Positions 41,979 to 53,860 of a stretch of DNA of 64,000 nt are shown in pieces. The stretch is taken from NCBI GenBank assembly GCA_023159155.1, contig JAJNNX010000020.1:765571-829570 (forward strand), read 5' to 3'. Both the position numbers and the translations under genes were made by a program. Under the pieces are notes generated by a model. It did no database searches. It worked only from the letters and a program-made list of their open reading frames with translations, and was not told the origin of the DNA. Each line of letters opens with the position of its first letter. Positions within the stretch are counted from its first letter, which is position 1. The DNA comes from Ustulina deusta. Lineage: Eukaryota; Ascomycota; Sordariomycetes; Xylariales; Xylariaceae.

Positions 41979-43177
41979 AGAGCCGTTACAGTCATGAAGG
42001 ACAGTCGTGTAGGGTCTGTTACGTAGTCAAAAGTCTGCGGTCTTCCGTCCCGCCCGTACTACTTGAACTTGCATTATGGCCCCAATCCTCCGGCTTCTTG
42101 CCAACTTCACGTCCACAATATATCAACATGCATAGAGCCGGACCAGCTCAGCCATCTTCTAAGGCAAATGAGAGGGCATTGTGAAGAGATGTATATGTGG
42201 ATGGTTTAATTGAAGGGAATGTGGTTGAGGGCAAAGCTAGTACACAAATGATTGATAGGACCTAGCTAGACAAACCAAATCATCGAAGCGTAACCTCCCT
42301 CTATAATAAAACCCCTAATCTTCTCTGAGCATGAAACCTAACACACAATCATAGTATTCCATCAACGTCTTCATCCCGATTCGCTCCGGCTTTAACCATC
42401 GGTGCTCACTCCAACTCGGTGGACCGGGAATACACATGTAGGGACTAACCCATCGTAAGTTTATATATAGGAAATCAGCTCGGGGCGGGTGACCTACTTT
42501 AGCGCGCAGTGAGGCTGCCGCCGCACTCAGGGCATCTGGCCGAGTTGGGCTCGCCCTGCCAGTTGCAGTCGTTGCAGACCAAATAGCGCTAGGTAGTCTA
42601 CAGGTTGCTAAAACTCGGCGGCGGCCATAATGATGAGGAATTGACAGGTACCTAATTCTAGTAGAAAAAGAAGTGGATCGAGTTATGCAAAGGAGCCAGG
42701 TTGCTTTATAGACGGGCCTCGGGCAAGTCGCCAGTAGAGTTCAAGACCGAAAAAGAAATGAAAGGAGGAAATAGTGTTGCATGTGGGTACCATTTATAAA
42801 AAAGAAATATGCAGTTGGTTCAACTTAAGCTATAGTATTCCAAGCATACAAATGTTGAAGTGTTGGTATGGAAGCCTCTAAGACTGGACTCGGGAGGTTA
42901 TGGCATCCGAAAATGGAGTCCCTCATACCGCGTTCAGCCCACTATGTGGAGACATTTACGTGACCAATATAAGTCATATTTATCGAAAAAAAAAACCCTA
43001 TTAACTATACGGAATCTCTTTAAGCTGGAGAAACATGAGTATAATTCGAGCTGTTGCTATTAATAGAAGTAGACGACTGTGGCGTGAGGTGCGGCGGGGA
43101 AAACGGATAGTACTTGGTACCTGGCGCTTGATTTCATCGGAAACAGCGACTTATGGACAGCCCAAAAGAAAAAGAAC
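41979..43177. other. Gene-poor region after the MetRS relic
   Basis: AT content rises here. Apart from the zinc-ribbon fragment at 42499-42588 nothing coding is recognised. Poly-A runs lie near 42990. Confidence 0.5.
42499..42588 (-). pseudogene. Zinc-ribbon-like coding fragment
   Basis: Minus-strand frame reads RYLVCNDCNWQGEPNSARCP, then ECGG and a short end to a TAA stop. The CxxC...CxxC pairs are those of a small zinc ribbon or the end of a RING/CHY-type protein. No start or convincing upstream exon is found within several hundred bases, although an acceptor-like CTACCTAG precedes it. It may be a relic or the last exon of an unrecognised small gene. Confidence 0.3.
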
Positions 43178-43327
43178 TGGTCAGTATGAGGGTCGAACTC
43201 ATGGCCTTCGCATTACTATATACAGTGAAATTCTGTATTAGTACCTGTGAATAGTCAGTCATGGTGAAGCTTAGAAGGTTTGGACTAGAAGTGCATACGA
43301 CGCTCTAACCAACTGAGCTAACCAACC
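43178..43327 (-). tRNA. tRNA-Ile(AAU), copy 1, with two introns
   Basis: Mature parts fold into a full cloverleaf: acceptor GGTTGGT/ACTGACC, D-stem GCTC/GAGC, anticodon stem TCGTA/TGCGA with loop CTAATAA (anticodon AAT), T-arm ATGAG/CTCAT. A-box TAGCTCAGTTGG is perfect and a CTTTTTC Pol III terminator follows. A 22-nt intron sits at the usual 37/38 position and its hairpin ATACAG/CTGTAT pairs with the anticodon. In addition a 54-nt insertion lies within the 5' strand of the anticodon stem (between positions 28 and 29, ambiguous by 3 nt because GTA is repeated). It begins GTATGC, ends CACAG, and has CTGAC 9 nt before its end. Without removing it the anticodon stem cannot form. Confidence 0.85.
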
Positions 43328-44135
43328 GTTGGGATGTGACTCAGCTGTTTTATTTGCCCTGAGATACGATCATTTGCGCACAGGCAGAGAAAAGGGGGGG
43401 GGAGCCATGGAGTGCGGGGTTAACGTTAGATAGAAAGAGGGGCAAGAGGGGCGTCACGGTGCATCTGCAAAATGTCAACTGTTGGCCCCAAGATCGATCA
43501 AAATTCACTCTCTATTCTTGGTTGCAAGTTCGCAATCAATGTATCACAAGGTGACAGCGACCGGCATGGGAGATATTAATCTTCAATAAGTCCATCCCTA
43601 GTACAACGACTGCTATGCTGCGAGCTGTGCAGTCATGTCTACTGTCTCTAAACCGGTCTTTGTTTTCTCGATTTGCCTCCAGCTGTACCTGACCTCGAAG
43701 AGTCACATGTATTTAACATTGTGAAAAACGAGTCCGTACATTGAAAGCTATCTGCAGTGGCTGTTCTGGCCAACAAGCAATCCGTAATGGTGCAGCTGGC
43801 TAAATGATCAAGGCAATTCATTTGTAGGTACAGTCAAGAATGTTTCCTCTCGGGGTATAATTTAATGATGAGTCGCTAAGAATAAGCTAGTTCTATCCAT
43901 GTTTTAGACACCCACAATGAAGCATGTTCAAGACTACTAATGCAACTAATGATTGATATATTAATACTAAACAGAAATAGCTAAGTACCATGGTATAAGG
44001 TTGCATAGCATACAACATTTGTATTTATTTTCTACTGTTTAAAAATGTAAACTTCCTAACATAGCTAAAAAAAAAAAAAAAAAAAAAATTACAAGATATA
44101 GAAATCTAGAAAAAAAAACAGGAAAAAAAGAATTA
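43328..44135. other. Spacer between the two tRNA-Ile genes
   Basis: AT-leaning non-coding DNA with a 24-A run near 44066-44090. No gene seen. Confidence 0.5.
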
Positions 44136-44283
44136 TGGTCAGTATGAGGGTCGAACTCATGACCTTCGCATTACTTGATACAGAGGGATTCTGTATTAGT
44201 ACCTAGTACGTGTTAGCCACTGGTGATTAATAGGCGGTAGTAAGGAAGACATACGACGCTCTAACCAACTGAGCTAACCAACC
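44136..44283 (-). tRNA. tRNA-Ile(AAU), copy 2, with two introns
   Basis: Same orientation as copy 1 and 0.8 kb away. The mature parts are identical to copy 1 except one variable-loop base (AGGTC against AGGCC). The normal 37/38 intron is again 22 nt with the same ATACAG/CTGTAT hairpin and a different loop. The extra insertion in the anticodon stem is 52 nt, starts GTATGT, ends CTAG and has CTAAC exactly 9 nt before its end. Between these signals it has no visible similarity to the copy 1 insertion. A T7 run follows as Pol III terminator. Confidence 0.85.
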
Positions 44284-51033: not shown

Positions 51034-52368
51034 GTCGGCCGACTTTCGGATAGTCAATTATGCAACTTTGGGGCCCGAGTACCTGGGGATTTTGGCCTGG
51101 TAGCCCGGACTTCTCCGCCATCGGCTTATATACACATTGACGGTATGGGAGGTTCGGACGGCAATGGCAACGCGGACAACGGCGGATTGGGCAAAAAAGG
51201 GGTTCTTCTTTTTATATGCGCAGGTCGTCAATTGGAGGCAGAAAACGACAACCCTCTTTTTTCTCTTTTTTTTTCCTCCCCTTCTTGGTTGTCTCTTCTT
51301 GTAGTGATATTATGGCAGTCTGGGCACGGCATGTTGGTAAAGGCAGGGATGGAGTTCGGGCGTCAGGGCAGACAGCACCTACGGAATAAGAGACTGGACG
51401 GTTCGGGGCAGTCTTGGCGATAAAAGAATCGGGCGCTTTTGAATAGCACTATCAATGTTGTCTCTCTTCACTTGGTTTGTTTACCCATCGGTCTACCTTG
51501 TCTACGCGTGCGCATATCATGTTCTGTTGGATAATATCCTGCTATTCTAGTGTCGTCGGATCTACTTTCCTGGGTTATGTATTAGTCAGCGTTGGAGGTT
51601 GTAAAGTGTTTGTTTTAGATATGACTTCGCCGCCAAATAGACGATTGCAAGAACCCGGGGGTGTTATAGAATTTTAGCTAGTTTGCACTCCGTCTCCGTA
51701 GTTAAGGGGTTAGTTTATCCAAGTCCAAGCAAAATTCTATATCTTGTCTTGCTTCTTTTGTGAATCGATCGCAGTACCTAGGCTATGCAAACAGCTATTA
51801 GGTATGTTACTTAGCATAGGGCAGTATTGCCTAGACTATGTGGTTACGAGCCTACACCCACACTCATTAATCAGTATCATTGCTGTTGTTGTGTCAAACT
51901 GCCATTCTCTTTCACGTCGAAACAGCAGGGCGAATCGACGTCGATGCTAGGCTGGTTGGTAATTGAGTTGGCAAGCTTCATCAATAAGTATCAGGTAGGT
52001 AGCCCACCCACGCCCCAGTCAGAGTAATTAAGATCAGATCAGATACGCTGCCTCCCTAGGTAGCTAACTATAACCTAAGCGAATAAACCTCTTATCGCAG
52101 AACGAAACGCCAAACTTAATTGTAATTATAGCTTTTCACCCTACTTATTATAGCTACGTGTAAGAAGAAAGAAAGACTAAATAAGAAACCCACTTTCTGC
52201 AGCTTTTTCCCCACCCCTCTTAATAAGTAAGTAAGAAAAAGAGGATCTGTGAAACTCAATAGGTTATAACGTATCCGCCACCAACACGGAAGTAAAAAAA
52301 AAAAAAAAGGGTTAAAAAAGAGAAAGGCAGCTTAATGAGGCCCCTGATTGTCCTCCGCGTATTTATTC
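51034..52368. other. Intergenic
   Basis: Pyrimidine tracts near 51260 and short, unsupported open frames. AT content increases from about 52000. No gene supported. Confidence 0.5.
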
Positions 52369-52453
52369 GACCTCGGCCGGACTCGAACCGACAATCTCTA
52401 GAGAATGATATTGAAACCGAAATCTAGCGCCCTAGCCATTAGGCCACGAGGCC
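52369..52453 (-). tRNA. tRNA-Arg(UCG) with 13-nt intron
   Basis: Minus strand. Acceptor GGCCTCG/CGAGGTC (one G-T), D-stem GCCT/GGGC, anticodon stem CTAGA/TCTAG, loop TTTCGG plus C, T-arm GTCGG/CCGGC around TTCGAGT. The anticodon is TCG. The intron TTTCAATATCATT sits at the canonical 37/38 position. Unlike the tRNA-Ile genes it has no second insertion. It is the last recognisable functional gene before the AT-rich block. Confidence 0.88.
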
Positions 52454-53860
52454 AACCGAGCTGGCGGTGGTGATGAAGTGGGCTGGCGCTATCGTGGGTC
52501 CAATGATGGGACCTTGGGGGTGGGGAGTCAGTGTAAGGGAGTTGTCGCGAAACGACTGGGGCAAATGAGTACCTGACTCATTTATTACAGGGGCTTTGTT
52601 CGTAGGTGATGGATAATTCCGTTGTGTGGGTTGTGTGTGGGCTTGATCTGTTATAGCGGCGACGTGCAGTAGGCGAAGACATCTTTTGGAGTTCCTGTGA
52701 AGCATAGCATTTTCAGTTCAGCCGACATGGTATTTACGTTCCGTTTTTAACTTCAGAGGTAAGAAGAGGTTATTAGAAGTTATCCATTGTTTTGGAAAGG
52801 ATCTCGCGCTACGGAGGATAGAATATTAGTATATTCCTGCTAATGGTAGGGCTTAACCTTGGTGATTTTGCTGCTGACAAGAAAGAGAGTACCGTGTTTA
52901 GTCTACAAGACCATACAATATAAAAATTCGTTGAGGAGCCTAAGTACGAATTAGAGCAATATTCGAATAACTCTAGTTAACGCATAATCGGCGGATAATT
53001 ATAGAGCACTGCGCGCGACCTAAAAAGCTAACCACACCTTTCCTTCTATTTATTATCCGTGCGCAAGCTACTATTAGTAGTTTTGCAGGCACACTACCAA
53101 AAACCTTAATACACTACTAAATTAGCGCAATTTCTACAAAACACCAAGGGCCTAATTAATAATAGTTTTTAGTGCTTAGCGCAGAGCTTTACTAATATAG
53201 GACTTTTTTACTTTGTTACGCCCGGCTATAACCTTTAATATATATATAGAAATAATAATTATTAATATACTATTAAAAGCTAATTTTTATTAAGCTAAAC
53301 GGATAAAAATTTATATAATTAATTTGTTTTTAAAACTAAAAATAGTTAAAAAAAATAATAATAACTTAAAAACTTTGCTTTAAAATATATTTATTAAGTA
53401 ATATATACTAATTAATTATAAAAATAAAATCTATAAAAAAGTTATTATAATACTAATAATAGTACTAAACAAGTTTATTTGTTTTTTTAAAAAAAATGTT
53501 TAAATTAGCTATAAAAAAATAGCTTAAGATTATATAAAAATATTAAAATAATACTTTAATATATTAGTATATATATAGTTAAGCAGTAGTATAATAGCAC
53601 TTTTTTAATTTATTAATATATTAGTATAAACCGAAACTTTAAAATAGCTAATGTTTTAATTATTAGTATTATTATATATTAATATAGCTAAATAAAAAAG
53701 TGCTAAACTAGCCCCTAAGTTTTTTTTTAAGCCTACTTTATTACTAGCTTTTAATAGATATATAATTTATAGCACTAATATAGCGGACCTTTAAAAACTT
53801 TGCAAAAATATATATATTTTAGTATAACTAAATAATAAAGCAGCTGAACTTTGCTAAGCG
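52454..53860. other. Transition into the AT-rich isochore
   Basis: Up to about 52930 the composition is mixed; from about 53180 nearly all C and G are lost. No coding sequence. The segment 52970-53170 still has CG-rich islands (GCACTGCGCGCGACC). Confidence 0.6.

Follow-up and report, generated by a model that had tools for sequence, protein, structure and literature searches.

Two doubly interrupted tRNA-Ile genes

The window, a stretch of 64,000 nucleotides of the Ustulina deusta genome, encodes two tRNA-Ile(AAU) genes, each of which is interrupted twice (Table 1). Both contain an ordinary 22-nt intron at 37/38 and a second, GT-AG insert at 28/29, which splits the 5' strand of the anticodon stem. 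Excision of both inserts from either gene yields a 73-nt tRNA-Ile(AAU) with all 21 stem pairs, and the two predicted mature tRNAs differ at one of 73 positions (T/C at position 48). As exon and insert have GTA in common, the insert can be placed in four ways that all yield the same tRNA, the GT-AG placement being one of them. These observations agree with an initial annotation of the locus, which had described two tRNA-Ile genes with a 22-nt intron at 37/38 and a further 52-54 nt insert at 28/29 that starts with GTATG, ends with AG and carries CTRAC 9 nt ahead of its 3' end; both genes are encoded on the minus strand. The cloverleaves described there as perfect and identical are perfect but not identical, and the first gene starts at 43179 instead of 43178.

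Neither gene was detected by ARAGORN with the settings used or by Rfam at gathering score, and the sole tRNA that the two reported in the window was one tRNA-Arg. An ordinary tRNA-Arg(TCG) with a short 37/38 intron is located at 52367-52454 on the minus strand. Proteins encoded in the window include Fungal_trans and Zn_clus domains and one protein close to solved phytases.

Table 1. Coordinates of the interrupted tRNA-Ile(AAU) genes (window positions) and of the two intron-bearing U6 genes (contig positions).
Feature	Position	Strand	Length or sequence features
tRNA-Ile(AAU) gene 1, doubly interrupted	43179..43327	-	149 nt
Gene 1, GT-AG intron at 28/29	43245..43298	-	54 nt; donor GTATGC; ACTGAC 9 nt before end; CAG
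Gene 1, ordinary intron at 37/38	43214..43235	-	22 nt
Gene 1, A box	43309..43320	-	TAGCTCAGTTGG
Gene 1, B box	43190..43199	-	AGTTCGACCC
Gene 1, Pol III terminator-like T5 run	43169..43173	-	6 nt 3' of gene
tRNA-Ile(AAU) gene 2, doubly interrupted	44137..44283	-	147 nt
Gene 2, GT-AG intron at 28/29	44203..44254	-	52 nt; donor GTATGT; GCTAAC 9 nt before end; TAG
Gene 2, ordinary intron at 37/38	44172..44193	-	22 nt
Gene 2, A box	44265..44276	-	TAGCTCAGTTGG
Gene 2, B box	44148..44157	-	AGTTCGACCC
Gene 2, Pol III terminator-like T7 run	44123..44129	-	8 nt 3' of gene
U6 (L126)	C91:574090-574241		53-nt intron GTACGT...ACTAAC...CAG, with B-box-like AGTTCGAATCC inside
U6 (L127)	C69:1560121-1560227		50-nt intron GTAAGA...GCTAAT...CAG

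GT-AG inserts in tRNA genes of four isotypes

The assembly examined comprises 56.1 Mb in 123 contigs. An incomplete tRNA survey identified eleven tRNA genes with a GT-AG insert of 49-64 nt, which represent four isotypes, lie on eight contigs and are interrupted at three sites: three tRNA-Ile and four tRNA-Asn genes (28/29), three tRNA-Lys(CUU) genes (52/53) and one tRNA-Arg(CCU) gene (19/20). None of these inserts is located at the canonical intron position 37/38, where the separate 22-nt introns of tRNA-Ile are found. A third tRNA-Ile(AAU) gene, on contig C24, contains a 55-nt insert at 28/29 (donor GTAAGT, CTAAC 9 nt before the CAG end), and a fourth, on C91, has a 24-nt 37/38 intron alone and no GT-AG insert, three of the four tRNA-Ile(AAU) genes found being doubly interrupted. 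In the single tRNA-Arg(CCU) locus found, a 59-nt GTAAGT...GCTAAC...CAG insert splits the D loop after G19.

All four tRNA-Asn(GUU) genes found carry a 49-58-nt GTAAGT...YAG insert at 28/29 and lack a 37/38 intron, and ARAGORN names all four as tRNA-Asn(GTT) once the inserts are excised. They were retrieved with an 11-mer of the anticodon arm searched across the assembly, a search that reaches genes sharing this anticodon stem. All 14 occurrences of the 11-mer (compared with 13 in the backwards control) were read; four are tRNA-Asn genes, ten are not tRNAs, and no uninterrupted tRNA-Asn gene is among them.

tRNA-Lys(CUU) is represented by seven loci, three of them uninterrupted, three with inserts of 55, 63 and 64 nt at 52/53 (donors GTGAGC, GTGAGT and GTTAGT) and one decayed. 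At the decayed locus (L070, C29:551000-552700) the insert starts with GC and, by our reading, the acceptor stem contains two mispairs, as though the donor and the gene had been lost together. All seven tRNA-Lys(CUU) loci (L008-L010, L072-L075) also share a conserved trailer with a small hairpin just 3' of the gene, the stem of which has changed on both sides between copies and which is followed by a T4+ run in six of seven; this is perhaps a structured trailer or a second small RNA.

In total, about 90 tRNA loci were tallied (61 of 63 scored places after two below the cut-off were dropped, 4 Ile, 8 Gly, 5 Pro, 1 Leu, 5+2 others and 4 Asn), eleven of which contain GT-AG inserts; the tally includes one decayed Lys locus and a few doubtful ones. 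One scan, in which 63 of 2,280 candidates were scored, failed to pick up eight uninterrupted Gly genes. A B-box pattern, GGTTCGANTCC, occurs at 283 places in the genome compared with 87 in the control, and the matches listed (100 of 283; 82 read, nine already covered) added roughly seven more tRNA genes, whose 37/38 introns are ordinary or long; no further GT-AG case was present among those read of the 100 listed. Phe and Cys are among the isotypes never seen in the 63 of 2,280 candidates scored and the 100 of 283 B-box places, and a tRNA-Phe query and a first tRNA-Asn query gave no match and are uninformative. The interrupted-Ile and -Asn patterns had no match in collections of prokaryote and viral contigs, which is of little bearing, and the Lys 5' half had none in the viral collection.

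The survey also yielded several observations on other tRNA-like loci. A tRNA-Arg(UCU) gene (L071, C59:339800-341400) contains a 164-nt insert at 37/38, which exceeds the 6-133 nt quoted in PMC4090602. Many of the B-box places (L090, L094, L097, L102 and similar ones) belong to a dispersed family that contains GGTTCGATTCC within an imperfect inverted repeat and is perhaps a tRNA-derived repeat. Two similar elements (L093 and L150) start with TGGCCGAGTTGGTACGGCC and end with GGTTCGATTCCCT(T/C)GTTGGCCA, showing tRNA-like ends and no clear cloverleaf, and L178 (274-372) contains a tRNA-like gene whose acceptor and T arm are well formed and whose middle is odd, with two hairpins.

Splice signals and exon boundaries

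The published fungal intron consensus consists of GTRWGT, RCTRAY and YAG, with 6-36 nt between branch and acceptor (PMC5832005, in part). The inserts were matched to this consensus because collections of mRNA introns from the same genome were too noisy in all three attempts, two of which yielded 95 matches against 93 in the reversed-sequence control and 28 against 10. All eleven inserts begin with GTNNG and end with YAG; GTRWGT is present in eight and GTRWGY in ten. A YTRAY branch motif lies 8-14 nt before the end in 10 of 11, and the strict form RCTRAY is found in 6 of 11. The inserts thus have the GT...AG ends, extended donor and branch motif within the published range that characterize fungal U2-type introns. 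Two inserts have a weak branch motif (TTTAAC in Lys C102 and CTTAC in Asn C54b), and the donor of Lys C90 is GTTAGT. Among 400,000 random stretches of matching lengths drawn from the window and other fetched DNA, 1,546 were of the form GT...AG, and only 11 of these (0.7%) combined G5, YAG and YTRAY 8-14 nt from the end, compared with 10 of the 11 tRNA inserts.

Boundaries were evaluated with a 25-point cloverleaf score (21 stem pairs and four invariant bases). In each of the four tRNA-Asn genes, no other excision of equal length matches the 25/25 scored by the GT-AG excision. For tRNA-Ile and tRNA-Lys, the product is identical for four or five placements, which include GT-AG, and for tRNA-Arg(CCU) the GT-AG placement scores 24 and another placement 25. 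Virtual splicing of 703 GT-AG candidates from 309.6 kb of DNA from the window and other fetched loci created eight tRNAs across the junction, of which seven were the interrupted genes identified up to that point and the eighth was an artefact at the 3' end of a tRNA-Thr, compared with two tRNAs, both at existing tRNA genes, from 703 random excisions. As most of this DNA had been fetched around tRNAs, the screen is a check of specificity and no census; Asn C54b, with its CTTAC branch motif, lies outside its reach.

Conserved exons, divergent introns and Pol III gene anatomy

Exons of the interrupted genes are conserved and under selection. The three interrupted tRNA-Ile genes differ at 1-3 of 73 positions, and the joined exons of the three interrupted tRNA-Lys genes are identical. 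The tRNA-Asn genes are of two types that differ at positions 6 and 68 alone, an acceptor-stem pair in which both sides have changed and pairing is kept. After removal of the splice motifs, one pair of Asn inserts is clearly similar (z 4.7) and another more weakly so (z 2.8), with z at most 2.1 in all other comparisons and, apart from the two Asn pairs, at most 1.9 within a site; with the motifs left in, z reached 3.9 at most among the nine introns compared. As inserts at the same site are otherwise dissimilar, the preserved splice signals are themselves evidence of constraint. Copies at one site share descent, so that independent insertions may number only three or four.

All eleven interrupted genes retain an A box, a B box and a T4+ run at most 52 nt downstream, the internal boxes and T-run terminator that by sequence anatomy characterize tRNA genes transcribed by Pol III. 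The Arg intron begins directly 3' of the A box, and the Ile and Asn introns are situated between the boxes. The Lys intron extends a single base into the B box, where GGTTCGACCC is restored by the final G of the intron itself. The A and B boxes are separated by 82-91 nt in the Asn genes and by 87-109 nt in the other seven (Ile, Lys and Arg), compared with 57 nt in the uninterrupted tRNA-Ile. Avoidance of T runs was considered as a signature of Pol III transcription and discarded: T5 runs are absent from all eleven inserts, but shuffled sequences are expected to contain only 0.7 per eleven, and the two T4 runs within inserts, against 2.5 expected, are uninformative.

Introns in both high-scoring U6 genes

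Seven U6 matches were identified in the genome. Two of these exceed the Rfam cut-off, and both contain GT-AG introns, which are located at different sites (Table 1). The Rfam alignment of L127 ran through the intron; by our reading its true 5' exon is identical to that of L126. The five weaker matches score 22-38 bits, and the three that were aligned all depart from the conserved core, one of them also containing a decayed insert. As U6 is essential to the spliceosome and both good copies are interrupted, removal of GT-AG introns from Pol III transcripts must take place in this organism, barring a better copy absent from the assembly, and judging from these two genes Pol III transcripts are very probably spliced here. 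Of 33 5S rRNA matches, 29 exceed the cut-off, with spans of 98-128 nt, and no intron-size insert was found among the matches scored.

Evaluation of alternative explanations

The sequence provides gene anatomy, splice signals, promoter boxes, terminators, constrained exons next to freely drifting introns and a set of tRNA-Asn genes in which no uninterrupted one was found. On this basis we consider it highly likely that the inserts represent genuine major U2-type spliceosomal introns in Pol III-transcribed tRNA genes, which would be removed by the spliceosome. The spliceosomal reading proposed in the initial annotation for the two tRNA-Ile genes is strengthened by its apparent recurrence at three sites in eleven tRNA genes, which represent four isotypes, and in both U6 genes above the cut-off.

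Interrupted copies might instead be pseudogenes or silent, with mature tRNAs supplied by uninterrupted genes, which the initial annotation had named as the outcome that would count against its reading. Uninterrupted copies do exist for tRNA-Ile (one of four, on C91) and tRNA-Lys (three of seven), so the Ile and Lys introns could reside in silent genes; one Lys copy is visibly decaying, with an insert that begins with GC and two acceptor-stem mispairs, and insertions in the D or T arm of one of many synonymous eukaryotic genes are regarded as probable pseudogenes in the part of PMC4090602 available. Against this, tRNA-Asn has no uninterrupted gene among those found, tRNA-Arg(CCU) was found once and is interrupted, exons are conserved while introns drift, the acceptor stem has changed in a compensatory manner between the two Asn types, and promoter boxes and terminators are kept in 11 of 11 genes. 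Pseudogenes were rejected as a general answer because of tRNA-Asn and the conservation of exons, and we regard silent copies as an unlikely explanation. Processing by the tRNA endonuclease at a bulge-helix-bulge (BHB) or a relaxed form of it, with the GT-AG appearance being coincidental, would accommodate the unusual positions, since this pathway is known to handle more than one intron in a tRNA as well as introns in the D arm, anticodon stem and T arm (PMC4090602, in part), and 3 of 13 introns allow a 4-bp central helix, which lacks flanking helices. However, the full motif (at least two outer and at least two inner pairs, 3-nt bulges and a 4-bp helix) was found at 0 of 13 introns and at 13 of 3,000 random loci, and coincidence would not produce GTNNG...YAG in 11 of 11 inserts. 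The initial annotation had looked to a BHB at both ends of the insertion as evidence against its proposal; modelled with 3-nt bulges, no full BHB was present at these introns. Endonuclease processing of this kind was rejected on these grounds and appears very unlikely.

That the inserts are recent copies of one mobile element, or an assembly artefact, and are not spliced at all could be suggested by the GTA repeat that flanks the Ile inserts in the manner of a target-site duplication. Such a repeat is absent from the Asn inserts, motif-stripped inserts are unlike each other apart from the two Asn pairs (z 4.7 and z 2.8), and the pattern recurs on eight contigs and in four isotypes, which leaves this explanation very improbable. 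A self-splicing group I or II intron was also considered and rejected, with Rfam at gathering score reporting only the tRNA-Arg in the window. Inserts of 49-64 nt are too short for the catalytic cores of group I or II introns.

Proposed maturation pathway and its implications

If the inserts are spliceosomal introns, transcription, removal by the spliceosome, the order of steps and the origin of the introns can be inferred as follows. Pol III would read the whole gene from the internal A and B boxes, which appear usable despite every intron, and the spliceosome would then recognize the donor, branch motif and YAG acceptor and join the exons. For tRNA-Asn, tRNA-Lys and tRNA-Arg(CCU), this step would give the tRNA body directly. 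In tRNA-Ile, it would rebuild the anticodon stem, after which the tRNA endonuclease could measure and remove the 37/38 intron. The introns possibly originated by reverse splicing or by exchange between tRNA genes, and reverse splicing or gene conversion may have carried them from one Pol III gene to another; tRNA-Ile and tRNA-Asn share the 28/29 site.

As these tRNA genes are split by mRNA-like introns, production of the tRNAs probably requires the spliceosome. The interrupted genes appear to be the only genes for one essential tRNA, tRNA-Asn. We lean towards the spliceosome being obligatory for tRNA maturation in this organism, with all Asn decoding, three of four tRNA-Ile(AAU) genes and the sole tRNA-Arg(CCU) gene found depending on it and U6, the catalytic RNA of the spliceosome, bearing introns as well. 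Splicing capacity would then directly limit translation, and asparagine decoding would be under splicing control.

The splicing of tRNAs and splicing by the spliceosome are taught as two distinct pathways, each with its own substrates. Were a tRNA to require the spliceosome and, in the case of tRNA-Ile, subsequently the endonuclease, both pathways would be joined in one molecule, and the spliceosome would have to act on transcripts of Pol III in which the first exon is very short (18-52 nt plus leader). Because standard tRNA finders miss or misname such genes, more of them may be hidden in other genomes, and a comparison of relatives would make it directly testable how introns enter structured Pol III RNAs.

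Comparison with known systems

No report of spliceosomal introns in tRNA was found in searches of open-licence papers, an absence that is no proof. The accessible parts of PMC11782384, PMC2784804 and PMC3978253 contain no such case, and no word beginning with 'spliceosom' occurs in that of a 2014 review of tRNA introns (PMC4090602). According to the same portion of this review, non-canonical eukaryotic tRNA introns are known from nucleomorphs and a red alga, and other such insertions are probable pseudogenes. U3 and U6 are described as the sole small structured RNAs in which introns are known to be frequent, with spliceosomal introns in 138 of 310 fungal U3 snoRNA genes (PMC5832005, in part), and U6 of Schizosaccharomyces pombe contains an mRNA-type intron thought to derive from reverse splicing near the catalytic site (PMC10484740, in part). 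The initial annotation's statement that no precedent is known thus does not hold for Pol III transcripts, given fission yeast U6, and stands for tRNA, for which none was found. The inserts are most likely spliceosomal introns in tRNA genes. This kind of intron and its presence in a Pol III gene, U6, are known; its repeated occurrence in tRNA genes, including those that appear to be the only ones for an essential tRNA, is new as far as was searched.

Like the U6 introns of S. pombe and other fungi (PMC10484740 and PMC5832005, each in part), the inserts described here are short, have GT-AG ends and a branch motif, and reside in genes for essential Pol III RNAs. In contrast to U6, which is a component of the spliceosome, the hosts are tRNAs of four isotypes with introns at three sites, and tRNA-Ile would additionally need endonuclease splicing. 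Fungal U3 offers a second parallel, as normal spliceosomal introns in a small structured RNA, which is however no tRNA. The 22-nt introns of the two window genes resemble ordinary eukaryotic 37/38 introns, whereas the second inserts differ from these in their positions (28/29, 52/53 and 19/20) and in carrying splice signals. In archaea, Cyanidioschyzon and nucleomorphs, too, introns occupy the D arm, anticodon stem and T arm, and a tRNA can contain several of them (PMC4090602, in part). Contrastingly, introns of archaea and C. merolae rely on the BHB according to the available part of this review, whereas no full BHB was found at the inserts described here, which carry spliceosomal signals, and the non-canonical tRNA introns of Guillardia measure 3-24 nt (PMC4090602, in part) compared with 49-64 nt here.
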